DNA of 64,000 bases from Verrucomicrobiota bacterium. Its GTDB lineage: Bacteria; Verrucomicrobiota; Verrucomicrobiia; Opitutales; UBA953. The notes under the pieces were generated by a model. It was not told the origin of the DNA, did not search any database, and was given only the letters and a program-made list of their open reading frames with translations. This document shows, one piece after another, positions 11,769 through 20,592 of the stretch; position 1 is the first letter of the stretch, and every line of letters starts with the position of its first letter. The stretch spans positions 1 through 64,000 of the forward strand of contig VHDL01000001.1 in assembly GCA_016871415.1 (NCBI GenBank), in the 5' to 3' direction. Position numbers and translations under genes: made by a program.

Positions 11769-12983
11769 ATGGTGATCAAGGTGAGGAGCGACGCTCCGGA
11801 GTCCCTGGCTGGGCACTCTGTCGGCATCCTGCTCATCGCGCTCGCCCTCGCGGCCTTCGGGCTGATGGTCCAGTACAGCGCTGGCATCTCGCTCTCGTCG
11901 AGCAACCGCTTGGTCGCCTTCGAGCGGCAGCTGATGTACCTGCCGGCCGCGCTGTTCGCCGGTCTGCTCGTCTACCGCATCGACCTCGACGTGGTGCGAC
12001 GCCACCGATGGTGGATCCTCGGCGCGGCCATCGTGGCCCTCTTCGCGGCCCGCATCCCGGGCATCGGCGTCTCCGTCAACGGCTCGTGGCGCTGGATTGA
12101 CCTCGGAATCATCCGCCTGCAGGCCTCTGACCTCGGCAAGGTCGCCTTGGTCGTGATGCTCGCCCACTTCCTGGCCGGCTCGCAGCGGCGCACCCTCCGT
12201 CCCGACTTCCCAGCGCTTTTCTTCAGTGCCCGCAGCCCCTACGTCATGACCGCGGCGGGCTGGGCCGACTTCAAGCAGGGCTACCTCTGGCCCGCGTCAG
12301 TCATCGTCGCGGTCTGCGCCGGCATCGCCCTCGGTCCCGACCTCGGCACCATCTTGCTCTGCTGCGCCGTCGGCGGCTCGATGATGCTCATCTCCGGCGC
12401 GCGCTGGCGGTACGTGATCCCGACCTTCCTCGTCGGCGCCGCGGTCTTCGCGGCGGTGGTGCTGAACTGGGAGAACCGCATGCGCCGGTTCCTCTCCTTC
12501 ACCGACCCCTGGGGCCGCCGCGGTGACGAGGCCTACCAGCTCTTCGAAGGTATGGTCGCCTTCGGCGTCGGCGGCATCACCGGCCAGGGTGCGGCGCAGG
12601 GGCTGCAGGGCCGAGCCTTCCTGCCGGAGGCGCACACCGACTTCGTATTCTCTGTGATCGGGGAGGAGTATGGTCTCATCGCGACCGCGACCGTGGCCTG
12701 CGCCTACTTCGCCATCTTCCTGCTGGCACACCGGGCGATGAAGCGGTCCGCCGACCTCTACCGTTTCAACCTCTGCCTCGGTGCGACCCTCTTCCTGGTC
12801 ATCCAGTCCCTCGTCAACATGGGCGTGGTGACGGGGCTGCTTCCGACGAAGGGGATTTCGCTGCCGTTCCTCAGCTACGGCGGCACCAACCTCGTCATCA
12901 TGGCCTGTATGGTCGGGCTGACGCTCAACTGCCTGCGTGACGCGCAGGGGCCGGCGTTCGTCCCCGGGGAGGCCAGGGCATGA
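11769..12983 (+). CDS. ftsW: Septal peptidoglycan glycosyltransferase FtsW
   Basis: FtsW is the SEDS-family polymerase that works with FtsI to build septal glycan strands from lipid II. The 404-residue protein has about ten membrane segments. Family blocks include NGSWRWIDLGIIRLQASDLGK-like sequence near residue 104, the large periplasmic loop containing GDEAYQLFEGMVAFGVGGIT and EAHTDFVFSVIGEEYGLI, and the C-terminal GISLPFLSYGGTNLV. RodA is the main alternative, but the position between murD and murG favours FtsW. Its stop overlaps the murG start (ATGA). Confidence 0.94.
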   Translation: MVIKVRSDAPESLAGHSVGILLIALALAAFGLMVQYSAGISLSSSNRLVAFERQLMYLPAALFAGLLVYRIDLDVVRRHRWWILGAAIVALFAARIPGIGVSVNGSWRWIDLGIIRLQASDLGKVALVVMLAHFLAGSQRRTLRPDFPALFFSARSPYVMTAAGWADFKQGYLWPASVIVAVCAGIALGPDLGTILLCCAVGGSMMLISGARWRYVIPTFLVGAAVFAAVVLNWENRMRRFLSFTDPWGRRGDEAYQLFEGMVAFGVGGITGQGAAQGLQGRAFLPEAHTDFVFSVIGEEYGLIATATVACAYFAIFLLAHRAMKRSADLYRFNLCLGATLFLVIQSLVNMGVVTGLLPTKGISLPFLSYGGTNLVIMACMVGLTLNCLRDAQGPAFVPGEARA

Positions 12984-14065
12984 GCCGCTTCCTGCTCGCC
13001 TGCGGCGGCACCGGGGGCCATCTGGCGCCGGGCATCGCCCTCGCGCAGCGTCTTGCGGAGGACGGTGGCGAATGCCTGCTCATCGTCAGTCGCAAGGCTG
13101 TCGACGCGCGCATGACTGCTAAGTACCCAGCCCTGCGCTTCCTGCCCGGCTCCGGCCGCGGATTCGGGCCCGGGCTGCTGGGCAGAATCCTTTTCTTGCC
13201 CGCCTTCCTGGGCGCGGTCTGGGCCTCGTGGCGCACGCTGCGTTCGTTCGGCGCCGACGCCGTGGTCTGCTTCGGCGGATTCATGAGCCTGGGGCCGGCG
13301 GTCGCGGCCGCGCTCGCCGGCGTCCCGGTCATCGTGCACGAGGCCAACCGCAAGCCCGGCAAAGCCGTCCGGCTCATCGCGCGCTTCGCCCGCGCCGTGC
13401 ATCTGCCTCCCGGGGTGCGCATCGCAGGCGTCGCGCCGGAGCGCCAGTCCGATTCGGGCTATCCCGTGCGCCAGGAGATCGGACCGCGCCCGCGGGCGGA
13501 GTCGCGGCGCGCCCTCGGCCTGCCTGAGGAGGGAAAAATGGTGCTCGTGCTCGGGGGAAGTCAGGGGGCCGCGTCCCTGACGCGATGGGCGGAGTCCGCG
13601 CTGCCGGAGCTCGCGGCCCGCGGCACGCACTTGCTCTGCCTCACCGGTCCCGCGGGTCGCGACGCCGTCGAGCGCCATGGCGGCGTCACCGCGCGGTTCC
13701 TGCCTTTCTGCGATCGCATGGCCGAGGCCTACGCGGCGGCCGATCTCGCCGTGTCGCGTGCGGGCGCCGGCACGCTCGCCGAGCTCGCCGCCTGCCGCAC
13801 GCCCGCCGTGCTCGTCCCGCTGTCGACCGCGGCCGACGACCATCAGAGCGCCAACGCCGAGCACCTGGCGGGGACGGGTGCCGCCGTCTGCGTGCGTGAA
13901 TCGGAGCTCGTCGGGCTGAGCGCCGAGGTTTGCGCCCGGCTCGATGACGCGTCCGGGCTCGCGCGCATGCGCACGGCGCTGGCCGCGGCGGACGCGGCTA
14001 ACCGTTGGGACGAGCTGCGGCGCCATGCCGTCGCTTTCGCCAAGGAGGGGCGCGCCGGGCGATGA
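12980..14065 (+). CDS. murG: UDP-GlcNAc:lipid I GlcNAc transferase
   Basis: MurG transfers GlcNAc onto lipid I to make lipid II on the inner face of the membrane. The 361-residue protein starts MSRFLLACGGTGGHLAPGIA, with the GGTGGH donor and acceptor loop at residues 9-14. It has GGFMSLGPAVAAALAGVPV near 96, the GGSQGA loop near 193 and the C-terminal SRAGAGTLAELAA segment near 258. Its length is normal. It is coupled by 4-base overlaps to ftsW before it and to the murC-murB fusion after it. Confidence 0.95.
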   Translation: MSRFLLACGGTGGHLAPGIALAQRLAEDGGECLLIVSRKAVDARMTAKYPALRFLPGSGRGFGPGLLGRILFLPAFLGAVWASWRTLRSFGADAVVCFGGFMSLGPAVAAALAGVPVIVHEANRKPGKAVRLIARFARAVHLPPGVRIAGVAPERQSDSGYPVRQEIGPRPRAESRRALGLPEEGKMVLVLGGSQGAASLTRWAESALPELAARGTHLLCLTGPAGRDAVERHGGVTARFLPFCDRMAEAYAAADLAVSRAGAGTLAELAACRTPAVLVPLSTAADDHQSANAEHLAGTGAAVCVRESELVGLSAEVCARLDDASGLARMRTALAAADAANRWDELRRHAVAFAKEGRAGR

Positions 14066-16341
14066 GCTCCGGTTCAGCCTGGATGCTCGGCGCCTGCGGC
14101 ATGGGCGTGGGGCCGCTCGCCATCTACCTCAAGGGTGAGGGATGGGAGGTCTCCGGCTGGGACGACTCCACCGGAAGCCCGATGGAGCTCCAGCTCGCGG
14201 ACGCGGAGATCCCGCTGCTCCGCGACCCCTGGTCGGCCGGCCGCTGTCCGGGGCTCGTCGGACGCTCGAGCGCGGTGAAGCCGGGACATCCCGCGCTCAC
14301 GCTGGCCGAATCGAAGGGCGCGCGCGTGCTGCGTCGCGGCGAGTTGCTGGCGGATCGCGTCGCGGACCGCCGTTTCGTCGCGGTCTGCGGCAGCCATGGC
14401 AAGACCACCACCTGCGGCATGATTGTCGCCGCCCTCGCGGGCGCCGGCGCCGACTTCGGCTACGTGCTCGGCGGGCTGTTCCGGGAGCCCTCGATGCCGC
14501 CAGCGCGCGCCTCGGCGTCCTCCCCGTGGGTCGTGGCGGAGGTCGACGAGAGCGACGGTACCATCGGGGCTTTCTCGCCCGACGTTACGGTCGCGGTGAA
14601 CCTCGACTGGGACCATCCCGACTACTACCGGGACGAGGCGGCGCTGGAGGCGGTCTTCCGGGCGCTCTTCGAGCGCACGCGTACGGCGGTGATCATCCCC
14701 GAGGGGAACGCGCGCCTCGAGCGGCTCGCCGCCGGTCTTTCCGTGTCCGTGCTGCGCGTCGGGCCCGAGGGCGACTACCGGGCGCGTCCCGTCGCCGGCG
14801 ACCACGCGTCCTCGGTGCTCGAGCTCGGCGGAAAGTTCCCCGCGCTCCAGGCGACCCTGCCCGTGGCCGGCACCTTCAACCGGGCCAACGCCGCCATGGC
14901 CCTCGCCGTCGTGCACGTCGTCACGGGCGCGGTGTCGCCGGAGCCGCTTTCCCGCTGGCGCGGCATCCGCCGCCGGCAGGACGTGCTCTACGAGCGCCCC
15001 GGCCTGCGGGTGCTGGCGGACTACGCCCATCATCCCACGGAAATCGCCGCGCTCCTGCGCTGGCTTCGCGAGACCCATCAGGGCCGCGTGATCGTGGTCT
15101 TCCAGCCTCACCGGCACACCCGCACGCGGCAGTACGCCGCCGAGTTCCGGCAGGCGCTCACCGCGGCCGACCACGCGCTGGTGATGCCGGTCTATTCCGC
15201 GGGCGAGGCCGCGGTCGAGGGCGGCGGATCGGAAGCCGTGGTGGCCGGCTCTTCGCACCGTCTGGTGGAGGACCGGCGGGCCCTGCCCGAGGTCCTGGAC
15301 GCGCTCGTGGCCGGCGAGGAGGCGGTGGTCGCCTTCGTCGGCGCGGGCGATATCGAGCGTGACGCCGAGGCCTACGCCAAACGCCAGCGCCGTCACGGGT
15401 CGGCTGCGGTCACCCCGGACCTTTCCGACCTCGTGGCCGGCCGTCTCTCCGCCGGAGCAGTGCTGCGGCCCAACGAGCCCCTCGCACGCCGCACCACGCT
15501 GGGCTTGGGCGGCAACGCCCGCTGGTACGCCGAGCCCGCCACCGTCGATGACGTCGTCGCACTCCTGCGCGCCTGCGCCGAGCTCGACCTCCGCTGGTTC
15601 GTCATCGGCCGCGGCAGCAATCTGCTGGTGCCGGACGAAGGCTATGACGGTCTCGTGCTGCATCTGGAGCCCGCCCGCTGGGGCGAGGTGACGTCGCTCG
15701 GCGACGGCCGGCTGAGGGTTGGGGGCGGGGCCCGTCTTAAGGAGCTCTGCGGCGCCGCGGCCCGCGAGGGGCTGGCCGGATTCGAATTCCTGGAAGGGAT
15801 TCCCGGGACCGTCGGCGGCTCGCTGCGGATGAACGCCGGTGCCATGGGCGGCTGGATCTTCGACGTCGTCGAATCGGTGGAGTGGCTTTCGCCGCAGGGC
15901 AAGGTGCGCGCCGCGCGCCGTGACTCATTCGACGCGCTCTACCGCGACTGCCCGCAGCTGCACGGCGCCGTCGTGCTTTCCGCCGTGCTGCGCGCGTCCG
16001 GCCGCGACGAGCCGGCCGCCATCCGCGCGCGGATGGAGGAGATGGCCCGCCGCCGGCGCGAGTCCCAGCCGCGCGAGGCCAGCGCAGGCTGCGTCTTCCG
16101 CAATCCCGACCCGGCCAAGGCCGGCCAGCTGGTCGACCGCGCCGGGCTCAAGGGGTTCGCCTGCGGCGACGCGGAGGTCTCGCTGGTGCACGCCAACTTC
16201 ATCGTGAACCGGGGCGCCGCGAGCGCATCCCAGTTCATCGAGGTCATGCGGCACGTGCGGACCGAGGTGAAGCGGAGCGGCGGCGCCGAGCTGCAGCCCG
16301 AGATTGTCGCGCTCGGCCGTGAATGGAGGGACCTCCTGTGA
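14062..16341 (+). CDS. murC/murB: MurC-MurB fusion: UDP-MurNAc:L-alanine ligase and UDP-GlcNAc-enolpyruvate reductase
   Basis: One 759-residue frame encodes two enzymes of consecutive steps. MurC fills about residues 1-450: an N-terminal nucleotide-binding segment MLGACGMGVGPLAIYL, the ATP loop GSHGKTTT at 110-117, EVDESDGT near 162 and ADYAHHPTE near 320. MurB fills about 453-759: RRTTLGLGGNARW, the FAD-binding GRGSNLLVPDEGYDG, GIPGTVGGSLRMNAGAMGG and AGCVFRNP. MurB makes UDP-MurNAc, the substrate of MurC, yet here it follows MurC in the chain. Cys677 occupies the position of the proton-donating Ser of E. coli MurB (SAGS there, SAGC here). Start and stop lie in 4-base overlaps with murG and ddl. 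Confidence 0.95.
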   Translation: MSSGSAWMLGACGMGVGPLAIYLKGEGWEVSGWDDSTGSPMELQLADAEIPLLRDPWSAGRCPGLVGRSSAVKPGHPALTLAESKGARVLRRGELLADRVADRRFVAVCGSHGKTTTCGMIVAALAGAGADFGYVLGGLFREPSMPPARASASSPWVVAEVDESDGTIGAFSPDVTVAVNLDWDHPDYYRDEAALEAVFRALFERTRTAVIIPEGNARLERLAAGLSVSVLRVGPEGDYRARPVAGDHASSVLELGGKFPALQATLPVAGTFNRANAAMALAVVHVVTGAVSPEPLSRWRGIRRRQDVLYERPGLRVLADYAHHPTEIAALLRWLRETHQGRVIVVFQPHRHTRTRQYAAEFRQALTAADHALVMPVYSAGEAAVEGGGSEAVVAGSSHRLVEDRRALPEVLDALVAGEEAVVAFVGAGDIERDAEAYAKRQRRHGSAAVTPDLSDLVAGRLSAGAVLRPNEPLARRTTLGLGGNARWYAEPATVDDVVALLRACAELDLRWFVIGRGSNLLVPDEGYDGLVLHLEPARWGEVTSLGDGRLRVGGGARLKELCGAAAREGLAGFEFLEGIPGTVGGSLRMNAGAMGGWIFDVVESVEWLSPQGKVRAARRDSFDALYRDCPQLHGAVVLSAVLRASGRDEPAAIRARMEEMARRRRESQPREASAGCVFRNPDPAKAGQLVDRAGLKGFACGDAEVSLVHANFIVNRGAASASQFIEVMRHVRTEVKRSGGAELQPEIVALGREWRDLL

Positions 16342-17258
16342 GCCGCGCGCCCGAGATCGTCATCCTCGCCGGCGGCGCCTCCTCGGAGCGCGAGGTTTCC
16401 CTGCGTTCGGGGCGCGCGGTCGCGTCCGTCCTGCCCGGCTCCCGCCTCGTCGAGCTGCCCGGCGACGCCCTGCCGGACTGGCTGGACGCCTCCCGGCATG
16501 TCGTGCTCCCCGTGACCCACGGCGGCTGGGGGGAGGATGGAGGTCTCCAGTCGGCCCTGGAGGGGCTGGGCGTCGCGTACGCGGGGAGCGACGCGGCGGC
16601 GAGCGCGCTCTGCATGGACAAGGTGCGGACCAAGGCGGTGATGCGCCGTTCGGACGTGCCCGCCGCGCCAGAGGCCGCCTTCGAGGCGTCGGCTCCGCCT
16701 TCGGCCGAGGCGTTGGTCGCCCGGCTGGGCGAGGACGTCGTGATCAAGCCCTCCGACCAAGGAAGCAGCGTTGGCCTCCTCATGCCCTGCGGGGCGGAGG
16801 AGGTGGCCCAGGCGCTGGCGTCCCTGCCGCCCGGCCGTTGGATGGCTGAACCGCGGCTTTCCGGCCGCGAGCTTTCTATCGGGGCGCTGGACGGGGAGCC
16901 CCTCGGTCTGGTCGAGATCGTGCCGCATTCCGGCGTCTACGACTTCACGACCAAGTACACCAAGGGCGCCTCCGAGTACCGTTATCCCGCGGAGGTCCCC
17001 GCCGCGGCCGCCGCCGCGGCCGCCGCAGCCGCCGCCCGCCTCTTCGCGGCCTGCGGCTGCCGGGACTTCGCCCGCGCCGACCTCATCCTTGAGTCCGACG
17101 GCCGTTTCCACTTCCTTGAAATCAACACTCTGCCCGGCATGACCGAGACCAGCCTCCTTCCCATGAGCGCCTCGTGTAAAGGGCTCGACTATCCGGAGCT
17201 CGTCAGGCGCATGGTCGCGCCCGCCGTCGCTAGATTCAGCCGGAGGGCCTTGCACTGA
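16338..17258 (+). CDS. ddl: D-alanine-D-alanine ligase
   Basis: Ddl makes the D-Ala-D-Ala dipeptide used by MurF. The start is taken as GTG 16338. It overlaps the murC-murB stop in a GTGA and is preceded at 7 bases by GGAGGG, while the in-frame ATG at 16323 has no such site. The 306-residue ATP-grasp protein shows LAGGASSEREVSLRSG at the N-terminus, VIKPSDQGSSVGL near residue 134, YDFTTKYTKGASEY near 197 and FLEINTLPGMTETSLLP near 257. About residues 220-231 are an uninterrupted alanine run where other Ddl proteins have a mixed helix. The fold should tolerate this, but it is odd. Confidence 0.94.
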   Translation: MSRAPEIVILAGGASSEREVSLRSGRAVASVLPGSRLVELPGDALPDWLDASRHVVLPVTHGGWGEDGGLQSALEGLGVAYAGSDAAASALCMDKVRTKAVMRRSDVPAAPEAAFEASAPPSAEALVARLGEDVVIKPSDQGSSVGLLMPCGAEEVAQALASLPPGRWMAEPRLSGRELSIGALDGEPLGLVEIVPHSGVYDFTTKYTKGASEYRYPAEVPAAAAAAAAAAAARLFAACGCRDFARADLILESDGRFHFLEINTLPGMTETSLLPMSASCKGLDYPELVRRMVAPAVARFSRRALH

Positions 17259-17259
17259 A

Positions 17260-18228
17260 ATGGGCTTTTTCGCTCGACTCTTCGGCCGCCGTCGCGATTC
17301 CTACCTCGGCCCCGCCGACCGGGACTGGCGCAACCTCGTGCCGCAGGACGTCAACCGCGTACCGGGCGACGAGGTCGGACGCCGTCGCGCCGTTCGTTCC
17401 CGTCTGCCCGCGGCATTCGGCGTCGTACTGTTCGCCCTCATGGGCTACCTGCTCTGGGCCGCCCTCGAGGACTCCACGCCCACCAGCCGCGTCGCCCTGC
17501 GTTTCAAGACGGACGGATTCCTCCCCGAGTCCTTCGTCCGTCAGGTCGTCGGGTCCGCCCCGGACGGCGCGGCCCGCGACGTGCGTGCCATCAAGGCCGA
17601 CCTCGAGTCGGACAACCAGGTGATGTCGGCCGACGTGCGTCGTCGTGCCGACGGCAGCCTCGACGTCTCCGTCCGCGAACGCGTGGCCGTCGCCCGCGTG
17701 GCGCTGGCCGAGGGAGGCCCGCTCGTTGTGCGCATCGTGAGCCCGGACGGACGCACCTTCACGGGGCTCGGCTATCCCGAGTCCGTCGTGCGCGACCTGC
17801 CGGAGATACGGGACTTCCGCATGACCGGAGAGGGCGACCGTCTGAGCGTCGACGGCCTCGAGGTCGTCGGGCCCTTCCTGCTCGCCGCGCGTCAGGAGCA
17901 GGAGCGTCATTACCGGCAGTGGTCCGCCGTGTCCCTGCGCGACTGCTTCGGCGCGCAGGAGGATGCCCCCGGATCCAACCTCAACGTCATCGTCCGCCCC
18001 GCCTCGCAGCCCGTCGACCGGCCCGCCCTCGTGGGCATCGTCTTCTCCACCGCCAACTGGAGGCAGGAGCTCGCCATGCTTCCCCGCATCGACGTCGAGA
18101 ACCTCCTCCGCCGGCCCGGCGTCACCTCGCAGTCCTACGTGCTCAAGCTCTCCATCCGCAACCGAACCTACAATCCTCCCGTGCCTGAACCGCGCCTGGT
18201 GCCCGTCACCGCCTCCGTTGTACGATGA
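17260..18228 (+). CDS. ftsQ: FtsQ-like division protein (by position)
   Basis: FtsQ is a bitopic protein linking early and late divisome parts. This 322-residue product has a basic N-terminal cytoplasmic region of about 50 residues and one membrane helix at about 51-69 (AAFGVVLFALMGYLLWAAL). A periplasmic part of about 250 residues follows. Sequence similarity to known FtsQ is weak. The call rests on topology and on the place between ddl and ftsA, where ftsQ normally lies. The segment DVRAIKADLESDNQVMSADV could correspond to a POTRA-like domain. The stop overlaps the ftsA start in an ATGA. Confidence 0.7.
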   Translation: MGFFARLFGRRRDSYLGPADRDWRNLVPQDVNRVPGDEVGRRRAVRSRLPAAFGVVLFALMGYLLWAALEDSTPTSRVALRFKTDGFLPESFVRQVVGSAPDGAARDVRAIKADLESDNQVMSADVRRRADGSLDVSVRERVAVARVALAEGGPLVVRIVSPDGRTFTGLGYPESVVRDLPEIRDFRMTGEGDRLSVDGLEVVGPFLLAARQEQERHYRQWSAVSLRDCFGAQEDAPGSNLNVIVRPASQPVDRPALVGIVFSTANWRQELAMLPRIDVENLLRRPGVTSQSYVLKLSIRNRTYNPPVPEPRLVPVTASVVR

Positions 18229-19460
18229 CCCCCAAGACGCTGCCATCGCTCATCGCCGTCATCGACGTCGGCACCGCCAAGACCGTCAGCCTCGTCGGAC
18301 AGATGATCGCTGGCCAGGCCCGCATGCTGAGTTTTAGCGAGCGGCCGACCAAGGGCGTCGTGAAGGGCGTCGTGACCGATCTCGAGCAGTTGCACGCCTG
18401 CGTGCACGAGGTCGTACATGACGTCGAGCGCGGCGCCGGACGGAGCGTCGACCAGGTCTATTTGTCGCTGGGTGGCCCGGCCGCGGAGGGCGAGCGCGTG
18501 AAGGGTCTCGTGATGGTGCCCGCGCGTGACGGCAAGGTCACCCAGAAGGACCTGCAAGAGGCCGTGGCTTCGGCGCGCCGCCAGGAGCCCCCGGCGGGGC
18601 GCACCACCATCCTCTACATGCGTCAGCCCACCATGCTGGACGGGAAGCCCGTCGCGAGCCCCGTGGGCATGACGGGCCGCCGACTCGAGGTCAGCTTCTG
18701 GCGCGTGACGATGGAGGAGGCCCTGGTGCGGCTGCGCGTGGGCATGATCAACGGCATGAGCATACGCGTGCGCGACTTCATCCTTTCCTCGCACGCCGCG
18801 GCCTGCGCGGCCGCCCAGGACGCGGACAAGCACGGCGGCGTCCTCGTCATCGACATGGGCGCGGGCACGACCGACTGGATTCTTTACTACAAGGACCACA
18901 TCCTCTGCGCCGGTTCGCTCCCCTTGGGCGGCGAGCACCTCACCAACGATCTCAGCGTCGCCCTGCGCGTCAGCCGTGAGACCGCCGAGGATATCAAGTG
19001 CCGCTTCGGTTCCGGCGTGCACCGTGAGGCGGACCTCAACCAGACCATCTGGAAGGACGGCGACCGCGGCCTGGGCGACCAGCAGTTCAACCGCGGCACG
19101 ATCACCAAGGTGCTGTCCCTGCGTTATCAGGAGACGCTCGACCTGGTGCGCAAGGACGTGATGCGCCATCTCGAGGGCATCTTCCCGGGACATGGCGTGA
19201 GGCTCGACCAGCACATGCTGCCCTCCGGCGTCATCCTCACCGGAGGTTCCGCCAACCTGGCCGACGCCTGCGAGGCGGTCCAGCAATCGCTCGGCCTGAC
19301 CGCCCGGGTGGGCGCGCCGGTCTTCGACAGCGAGTCGCTGCGCAAGCCTGAGTACGCCGGTGTGGTGGGGCTGATGCGCGCGGCCATCACCGATGCTCCT
19401 CCCGCCGCGCGACGTCCGCGCGGGCTCTGGGACCAGATCAGGGTCCTTTTCCGATTCTGA
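18225..19460 (+). CDS. ftsA: Division protein FtsA
   Basis: FtsA is the actin-like ATPase that tethers FtsZ to the membrane. The 411-residue protein has the phosphate 1 loop IAVIDVGTAKTVSLVG at about residues 10-25, the 1C domain with the KGVVKGVVTDLEQL segment, the phosphate 2 region VLVIDMGAGTTDWILYY near 206-222, and GVILTGGSANLADA near 335. The C-terminal RRPRGLWDQIRVLFRF is an amphipathic helix typical of the FtsA membrane anchor. The stop is one base before the ftsZ start. Confidence 0.94.
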   Translation: MTPKTLPSLIAVIDVGTAKTVSLVGQMIAGQARMLSFSERPTKGVVKGVVTDLEQLHACVHEVVHDVERGAGRSVDQVYLSLGGPAAEGERVKGLVMVPARDGKVTQKDLQEAVASARRQEPPAGRTTILYMRQPTMLDGKPVASPVGMTGRRLEVSFWRVTMEEALVRLRVGMINGMSIRVRDFILSSHAAACAAAQDADKHGGVLVIDMGAGTTDWILYYKDHILCAGSLPLGGEHLTNDLSVALRVSRETAEDIKCRFGSGVHREADLNQTIWKDGDRGLGDQQFNRGTITKVLSLRYQETLDLVRKDVMRHLEGIFPGHGVRLDQHMLPSGVILTGGSANLADACEAVQQSLGLTARVGAPVFDSESLRKPEYAGVVGLMRAAITDAPPAARRPRGLWDQIRVLFRF

Positions 19461-19461
19461 G

Positions 19462-20592
19462 ATGGAACGGACGCCCTCCATCCTGCTCCTCGGTCTGGGC
19501 GGCGCCGGTTGCTCGATGGTCTCCCGTCTCTCCTCCGGACTCACTTCCGAGGTGGGCGCGCTGTTCGTGGACACGGATGAGCGTTCCCTGCCCGCCGGCA
19601 GGGTCACGCTGCAGCTAGGTCGCCAGCAGACCCGGGGCATGGGGACCGGCGGTGAGGTCGGCTCCGGGCTGGCCGCGGCGGAGTCCGAGGAAGCCGCGCT
19701 CCGTCGGGCGCTGGCGGGCGCCCATGTCGTGGTGCTCGTGACCGGCCTCGGCGGGGGCACCGGCAGCGGGGCGGCGCCCTTCATCGCCGCCTGTGCGTCC
19801 GACACCGGCGCCACCGTGCTCTGTTTCGCCACGATGCCTTTCTCGCACGAGGGGGAACGCCGCCAGCGCGAGGCCGACCAGGCGGCAACGGTCCTCGCCG
19901 GCCGCTGTCACGGATTCATCGCGGTCCACAACGACCTCCTGCTCCAGCAGGTGCCCGCAGACGCCCCCATGCCCGATGCATTCGCCGCAGCGGACGCCTG
20001 GGTGGGCGGCGCCATCCGCGGCATCGCGGCGGCCTTCGCGCCGGGAGCGCTCGTTTCGGCGGATCCCTCGGCGTTGCGCTCCATCCTCTCCACTCGGGGT
20101 TCGCCGACACTCTGCGCCTTCGGCGCGGGAGAAGGGCAGGGCGCCGCCATGAAGGCGGCGCGGGCCGCGGCGGACTGTCCGCTCGCCCACGGTCCGGGGG
20201 CGGTGACCAAGGTGGCCTCGCTCTTCGTCCATGTCTCAGGCGGTCTGGAGCTGACCTCGACCGACGCGTTCGAGGCCGTGGCCGCGGTGCGCGCCAAGTT
20301 CGGCGGCGAGACCTCCACCGTGCTCTGCGCGCGGACGGATCCGGCGCTGGCCGGGAGGGCCGAGGTGTCGGTGCTCGGCGCCTCGTTGCCCGTTCCGCGT
20401 GCGCCCGCCAAGGGTCGCAAGGGCGCCAAGTCCGGCAAAGGCGACGAGTCCCAGACGGTGTTTCCTTTCGCCACGGATGAGGCGGTCCGCCGAGGGTTCT
20501 TCGGCGGCGCGCCCCTCACCATCGTGGACGGCCAGGACATCGACGTGCCGACCTACATCCGGAGGGCGGTACGCCTGCCTTCCGGATACTGA
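19462..20592 (+). CDS. ftsZ: Divergent division GTPase FtsZ
   Basis: FtsZ is the tubulin-like GTPase of the division ring. From ATG 19462, one base after the ftsA stop, the protein has 376 residues. The tubulin signature is present (GLGGGTGSGAAP, core at 97-103) and so is a C-terminal peptide (DIDVPTYIRRA) like the conserved tail that binds FtsA. Several normally invariant positions differ. The N-terminal nucleotide loop reads GLGGAGCSMV, with Ser where Asn is usual. The T7 loop reads ALVSADPSALR, with Ser199 for Asn and Ala204 for the second Asp (E. coli D212), while the first Asp is kept as D201. Position and tail support an FtsZ role. Confidence 0.88.
   Translation: MERTPSILLLGLGGAGCSMVSRLSSGLTSEVGALFVDTDERSLPAGRVTLQLGRQQTRGMGTGGEVGSGLAAAESEEAALRRALAGAHVVVLVTGLGGGTGSGAAPFIAACASDTGATVLCFATMPFSHEGERRQREADQAATVLAGRCHGFIAVHNDLLLQQVPADAPMPDAFAAADAWVGGAIRGIAAAFAPGALVSADPSALRSILSTRGSPTLCAFGAGEGQGAAMKAARAAADCPLAHGPGAVTKVASLFVHVSGGLELTSTDAFEAVAAVRAKFGGETSTVLCARTDPALAGRAEVSVLGASLPVPRAPAKGRKGAKSGKGDESQTVFPFATDEAVRRGFFGGAPLTIVDGQDIDVPTYIRRAVRLPSGY

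Follow-up and report, generated by a model that had tools for sequence, protein, structure and literature searches.

In the solved filaments of Staphylococcus aureus FtsZ, which hydrolyzes GTP by a two-cation mechanism with Mg2+ and K+, the upper T7 loop contributes two acids, D210 and D213, that hold the attacking water. In the transition state D210, the equivalent of E. coli D209, rotates to place the water; D213, the equivalent of E. coli D212, keeps its place and, jointly with R143, gives the site its shape. The K+ ion is bound by N208 and met from below by Q48. The single mutations D210N and D213N both stop assembly (PMC8936486). From the same study we take the conservation of D209 and D212 outside the Verrucomicrobiota. 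E. coli FtsZ D212A has 7% of its GTPase left (PMC8142252), D212G (ftsZ2) has been reported to function in division (PMC4383033), and a membrane-targeted construct of D212G, with its GTPase reduced approximately tenfold, makes vortices that are static (PMC7320174). In α/β-tubulin the same T7 position decides whether an interface hydrolyzes GTP, with E254 driving hydrolysis and K254 blocking it (PMC13394414). Natural deviations have been described as well. The FtsZ of Ca. Thiosymbion oneisti has a low GTPase activity, the cause of which lies elsewhere since the binding and catalytic residues are conserved (PMC8953583), and the FtsZ of Nitrosopumilus maritimus, which has lost the T7 motif together with the GTP-binding motif, does not polymerize (PMC3684127). 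Whether division requires FtsZ to hydrolyze GTP and treadmill has been argued from laboratory mutants. Along with the second copy of the CPR, verrucomicrobial FtsZ proteins have been described as the most divergent bacterial groups (PMC9871819).

The window, that is, the whole stretch of 64,000 nucleotides that was analyzed, encodes an FtsZ that has kept the first of the two T7 acids and lost the second. It derives from a genus of the Opitutales known mostly from metagenome assemblies (relatives BS6, UBA953 and UBA7397) and, to judge from isolate names, probably mainly from freshwater. An earlier note on the sequence gave the coordinates, strand and reading frame of ftsZ correctly (Table 1). 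The gene begins with the ATG at 19462, one base past the ftsA stop codon, and its upstream neighbors ftsW, murG, murC-murB, ddl, a gene at the ftsQ position and ftsA mark the locus as an ordinary dcw cluster. Fusion of murC and murB in one frame is a known verrucomicrobial feature (PMC12283558).

Table 1. Genes of the dcw cluster and segments of FtsZ discussed in the text (positions in the window; residue equivalents refer to E. coli FtsZ unless stated otherwise)
Feature	Position	Strand	Remarks
ftsW	11769..12983	+	TIGR02614 293 bits, best match, below the cut-off of 338
murG	12980..14065	+	TIGR01133 212 bits, below the cut-off of 250
murC-murB fusion	14062..16341	+	One 759-aa frame matched by both the murC and the murB model
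ddl, D-Ala-D-Ala ligase	16323..17258	+	NF002378 261 bits, cut-off 243
ftsQ	17260..18228	+	Assigned by cluster position only; no NCBIfam match
ftsA	18225..19460	+	Directly upstream of ftsZ; TIGR01174 238 bits, cut-off 176
ftsZ	19462..20592	+	376 aa; the genome's only tubulin/FtsZ-family gene; PF00091 98.6 bits
T1/P-loop region, G13-S18 (GGAGCS)	19498..19515	+	S18 in place of N24
T2 loop and start of H2, D37-R41 (DTDER)	19570..19584	+	D37 for N43, D39 = D45, R41 for Q47
T4 G-box, residues 96-103 (LGGGTGSG), tubulin signature	19747..19770	+	Intact
Residues E130-R134	19849..19863	+	R134 = R142 (S. aureus R143)
T7 (synergy) loop and start of H8, residues 193-207 (APGALVSADPSALRS)	20038..20082	+	S199 = N207, D201 = D209, P202 = F210, A204 = D212
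C-terminal conserved peptide DIDVPTYIRRAVRLPSGY	20536..20589	+	Present

By orthology, operon, fold and motif the protein is a genuine FtsZ. It lies well above the cut-off of 33 bits of the Tubulin/FtsZ GTPase domain (PF00091), and scores 24.5 bits with the FtsZ C-terminal domain (PF12327), the curated cut-off of which is 27; the fold match obtained with Foldseek spans this domain. With the NCBIfam equivalog TIGR00065 it reaches 178.6 bits, below the cut-off of 295.2. This cut-off is passed by just 29 of the 141 genomes of the class and thus shuts out most verrucomicrobial FtsZ proteins, for which reason it was not taken as defining FtsZ. The tubulin C-terminal domain has no match in the protein and the best fold matches are FtsZ, which distinguishes it from BtubA/B. 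The tail peptide and the tubulin signature had been said to be kept, and both are present, as DIDVPTYIRR and as the G-box GLGGGTGSG (residues 95-103); in the alignment the GGGTGSG core is accompanied by the nucleotide-contact residues E130, R134, N157, F174 and D178. The C-terminal conserved peptide is expected to be the FtsA-binding tail. The earlier note had proposed a search for a second canonical ftsZ; PF00091 has a single match, ftsZ itself, in the organism's genome (2.21 Mb, 99.5% complete). The gene is under purifying selection, with a dN/dS of approximately 0.11-0.13 relative to the two nearest relatives and of 0.03-0.24 over the pairs tried in the genus, and the C-terminal peptide and ftsA are conserved. 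Another genome of the sample (contigs C11 and C39) contains two genus-type ftsZ genes, the products of which are 70% and 68% identical to the window protein, and is most likely a mixed bin.

The T7 loop of the window FtsZ reads GALVSADPSALR, so that the canonical pair of acids is reduced to D201, with A204 at the second site. Alignment by phmmer (HMMER) to the FtsZ proteins of S. aureus and E. coli/Klebsiella is ungapped in this region (LMNVDFADVRTV in E. coli, LVSADPSALRSI in the window), pairs the residues as listed in Table 1 and retains R214 as R206. The same register was obtained in a MAFFT alignment of 275 proteins. The exchanges of Asn for Ser199 and of D212 for Ala204, with a Pro following D201, which had been noticed from the sequence alone, were borne out in both alignments, as was the Ser in place of Asn in the first loop. 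To these are added two changes that had escaped notice, N43 to D37 and Q47 to R41. The residue equivalent to the K+ ligand N208 of S. aureus FtsZ is Ser199 in the window and Ala or Pro in congeners. A further change concerns E. coli D187, in a region whose Asp presumably contacts the guanine. A loss of guanine recognition through this change was considered and set aside because the neighboring D178 is invariant in the genus and occupies the site of the S. aureus Asp (E. coli N186). The predicted structure has the FtsZ fold (pTM 0.73), with a well-predicted N-terminal domain, a less well-predicted C-terminal domain and an unpredicted linker and tail. In the model, T7 comprises residues 193-201 and P202 opens H8, the first turn of which contains A204; at the level of the model, this agrees with A204 at the D212 site. 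The 50 best Foldseek matches listed are all FtsZ, headed by S. aureus FtsZ (E 6e-24, TM 0.85 by target length).

Confined to a single genome, the loss of D212 would be nothing out of the ordinary. What is of real interest is its occurrence throughout an order, together with its mirror image elsewhere, on both of which the earlier note was silent. Among 32 aligned congeners, Asp at 209, Pro at 210 and Ala at 212 occur in 32/32, so that A204 is not a sequencing error; position 24 is Ser in 26/31 and Ala in 5/31, Arg occupies position 47 in 23/31, and the Arg equivalent to R142 is present in 31/32. In the 81 sequences from the rest of the Opitutales, D209 is kept in 71, and position 212 is Thr in 39, Ser in 14, and Asp in just 7, with Ala, His, Met and others making up the remainder. 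In a tree of 139 representative FtsZ proteins from which the T7 columns were left out, the Opitutales are monophyletic (support 100), and D212 is placed as lost at the base of this clade. The change is thus ancestral to the Opitutales. A few members of the order (L247, L045 and L218) are acidic again at 212. From the T7 loop of a protein of the same family as the window organism (L215), RGLINIDFATLRSA, together with the pattern in the order, we infer a path from Asp through Thr to Ala at this position. N207 and F210 were probably lost later than D212.

In many families of the same class or phylum outside the Opitutales the reverse is found: position 209 is Gly, Thr, Ser or His and position 212 is Asp or Glu, as in the loops PGLINVGLDDLMAA, PGLIRIGFDDLLRA and TGIINITFADIQEL. 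L143, L145, L162, L169, L108, L097 and L146 are among the FtsZ proteins of this kind. An additional Asp at 211 (GLDDL) occurs in 8 of the 28 D209-lost families, where it perhaps stands in for D209; nothing comparable is seen in D212-lost families. Among 247 reliable FtsZ sequences, 46 have both acids, 134 only that at 209, 59 only that at 212 and 8 neither. By majority within each of 91 verrucomicrobiotal families the corresponding numbers are 23, 38, 29 and 1 (Fisher p 1.6e-8), and hence 90/91 families retain one T7 acid or both. Since families share ancestry, a model of correlated loss was fitted on the tree. It was superior to independence (LR 16.0, 4 df, p 0.003; loss-only p 0.0006; second tree p 0.001); under it, the rate at which either acid is lost drops about fourfold after the loss of the other. 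The same model applied to 12 other residue pairs revealed none with significant protection in both directions; the strongest of them (24/207 and 24/43) showed co-loss, as general decay would give. A stricter test with independent pairs was not significant (median p 0.63), and the pattern had been noticed in the same data that were used to test it. As the FtsZ tree is unstable in the Verrucomicrobiota (PMC9871819), an either/or rule for the two T7 acids across the phylum is treated as likely rather than proven. It suggests that a division ring can work in living cells with a single T7 acid. No report of a missing T7 acid or of the either/or pattern was found in the open-licence literature, which is no proof of novelty.

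The explanation that we favor, with a probability of roughly 0.62 when taken as a whole, is that the window protein is the true division FtsZ of the organism and the only one, that D212 was lost at the base of the Opitutales, and that what resulted is a working, probably slow, GTPase with one acid. According to this scenario, the ancestor of the order dispensed with the second T7 acid, and in the genus position 212 would have become Ala, N207 Ser, Ala or Pro, and F210 Pro. GTP binding and filament formation would be those of an ordinary FtsZ, and D201 would be the only T7 acid to position the attacking water where subunits meet, R134 and D39 of the Mg2+ site having been retained. Hydrolysis would proceed, though at a lower rate than in E. 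coli, and subunit turnover would consequently be slower too. Across the phylum one T7 acid would suffice, the Opitutales having kept the first and several sister orders the second. The expectation of a working GTPase comes from the identity of the retained Asp, which is the water-positioning Asp of S. aureus FtsZ. Conservation is similar in the two groups of families at both of these sites: the Arg at 142 is kept in 33/40 D212-lost families versus 21/26 families with two acids, and D45 in 36/41 versus 24/26. Because S. aureus D213N does not assemble, the site is likely to be compensated elsewhere in the protein; a column-by-column scan of the D212-lost families uncovered no clear compensating gain. 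Against the favored explanation stand the accompanying loss of N207, as read from the alignment, and the static vortices of membrane-targeted E. coli D212G (PMC7320174).

How much hydrolysis such a site would support is the point on which the alternatives differ. That GTP is bound but hardly ever hydrolyzed, much as at the K254 interface of β-tubulin, and that the Z ring is a static framework on which the septal wall is made, is improbable, though it draws on the motif alignment made here of D212 with the catalytic E254 of α-tubulin (roles of E254 and K254: PMC13394414), on the static vortices and feeble GTPase of membrane-targeted D212G (PMC7320174) and on the missing N207. Such a scaffold would be expected to drift at D201, R134 and D39, yet the genus shows little or no variation at these residues, and the retention of one T7 acid in all but one of the families likewise speaks against it. 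A GTPase of normal rate, in which D212, N207 and K+ are replaced by, for instance, R41 (Q47 in E. coli) or a reorganized network of waters, is slightly less improbable but still doubtful. The position is a suggestive one, as the equivalent Q48 faces the T7 K+ site in S. aureus FtsZ (PMC8936486) and Arg predominates there in the genus. However, Arg or Lys at 47 shows no association with the loss of N207 across families, so that R41 as a K+ substitute tied to this loss was rejected, and neither a new T7 acid in any congener nor, among D212-lost families, a column with a clear compensating gain was found. The earlier note had offered slow hydrolysis or the takeover by another residue. The former stands as the best reading, with the rate estimated by analogy; for the latter there is no support around T7, as in the alignment none of the 32 congeners has another acid at positions 204-217 and a local replacement acid in T7/H8 is thus absent from the genus.

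This absence also bears on the remote prospect that an acidic residue would turn out to occupy the D212 site once structures are aligned, the outcome named in the earlier note as contradicting it. Overall identity to solved FtsZ proteins is indeed just 28-30% or so, but T7 aligns without gaps to several of them, anchored by D201 and R206 (R214), the intermediate relatives RGLINIDFATLRSA and TGLINLDFATLRQA also anchor the register, and D201 is the sole acid at positions 204-217; in the sequence alignments, no acid falls on D212. Nor is there much to be said for the idea that FtsZ is in decay or has been put to another use and has given up its part in division, which is very unlikely. The score below the NCBIfam cut-off and the existence of reduced Opitutales in which neither ftsZ nor ftsA is detectable might point that way. 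The former applies to most genomes of the class, and decay is rejected by the dN/dS values and the dcw operon, with an ftsA above its cut-off, to which the conserved tail peptide and the sole copy may be added. Moreover, ftsZ is essential in Verrucomicrobium spinosum (PMC12283558). V. spinosum presumably belongs to a family of our survey (f46) that displays a D209-lost T7 loop and a distant second tubulin-family gene, as in Prosthecobacter.

The slow one-acid GTPase that we favor resembles the E. coli D212A and D212G mutants in having lost D212 and kept the first Asp, and its low rate is inferred by comparison with theirs. The latter are laboratory mutants of an otherwise canonical FtsZ, whereas in the window the change arose naturally, has become fixed in an order and comes together with others at N207, F210, N24, N43 and Q47. 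S. aureus FtsZ, the closest solved structure by fold, has its D46, R143, G-box and D210 equivalents kept in the window protein, whereas N208, D213 and Q48 are represented by Ser, Ala and Arg. In contrast to α/β-tubulin, the decisive T7 position is not occupied by Lys and the equivalent of D251 is kept; since the window FtsZ would form a homopolymer, every interface would be altered. With the FtsZ of Ca. Thiosymbion oneisti the window protein would share a naturally low GTPase. The loss of the T7 motif is shared with N. maritimus FtsZ, the G-box of which, unlike that of the window protein, is not intact. An order that lacks the acid equivalent to tubulin E254 and sister orders that lack the other acid would be nature's own test of how small the active site can become. 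They provide ready-made protein pairs for GTPase, treadmilling and structural work, and the sequences name the acid on which each lineage relies.

A bolder proposal, which we regard as unlikely, is that the T7 acids are mutually replaceable and that one of them was dropped repeatedly in the Verrucomicrobiota, that the Z rings of the Opitutales are near-static and poor in hydrolysis, with treadmilling no longer the organizer of septal growth, and that this relaxed state is a step towards division without FtsZ and FtsA. If true, it would link the window FtsZ to the mode of division apparently used by reduced Opitutales. In 14 Opitutales genomes of 0.8-1.1 Mb, and likewise in one of 2.3 Mb on a single contig (G237), ftsZ was not found with TIGR00065 or with a profile of diverged Opitutales FtsZ, and searches for ftsA in the ftsZ-less genomes gave just weak matches resembling MreB/DnaK. 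FtsZ-less division inside the order is therefore possible; completeness is 86-95%, but the absence recurs in several families. Three proteins from genomes of about 1 Mb (family f67) have a recognizable G-box and an unrecognizable T7 loop (e.g., FACRLNDFAHH) and are perhaps intermediates towards the loss of FtsZ.

Other divergent proteins were encountered in the survey. Ten FtsZ proteins of family f29 (L204-L213; genomes of 2.2-2.5 Mb, several on single contigs) match TIGR00065 with E values of 1e-6 to 1e-22 and have T7 loops that cannot be aligned. An FtsZ-like protein of a member of the Selenomonadaceae has a canonical T7 loop, but its frame contains no C-terminal conserved peptide. In three genomes (G165, G169 and G184) a distant second tubulin-family protein occurs beside FtsZ, with the T7 loop PGKLNTDLSEFVTN (L214, from G165), and looks like BtubA/B of Prosthecobacter.
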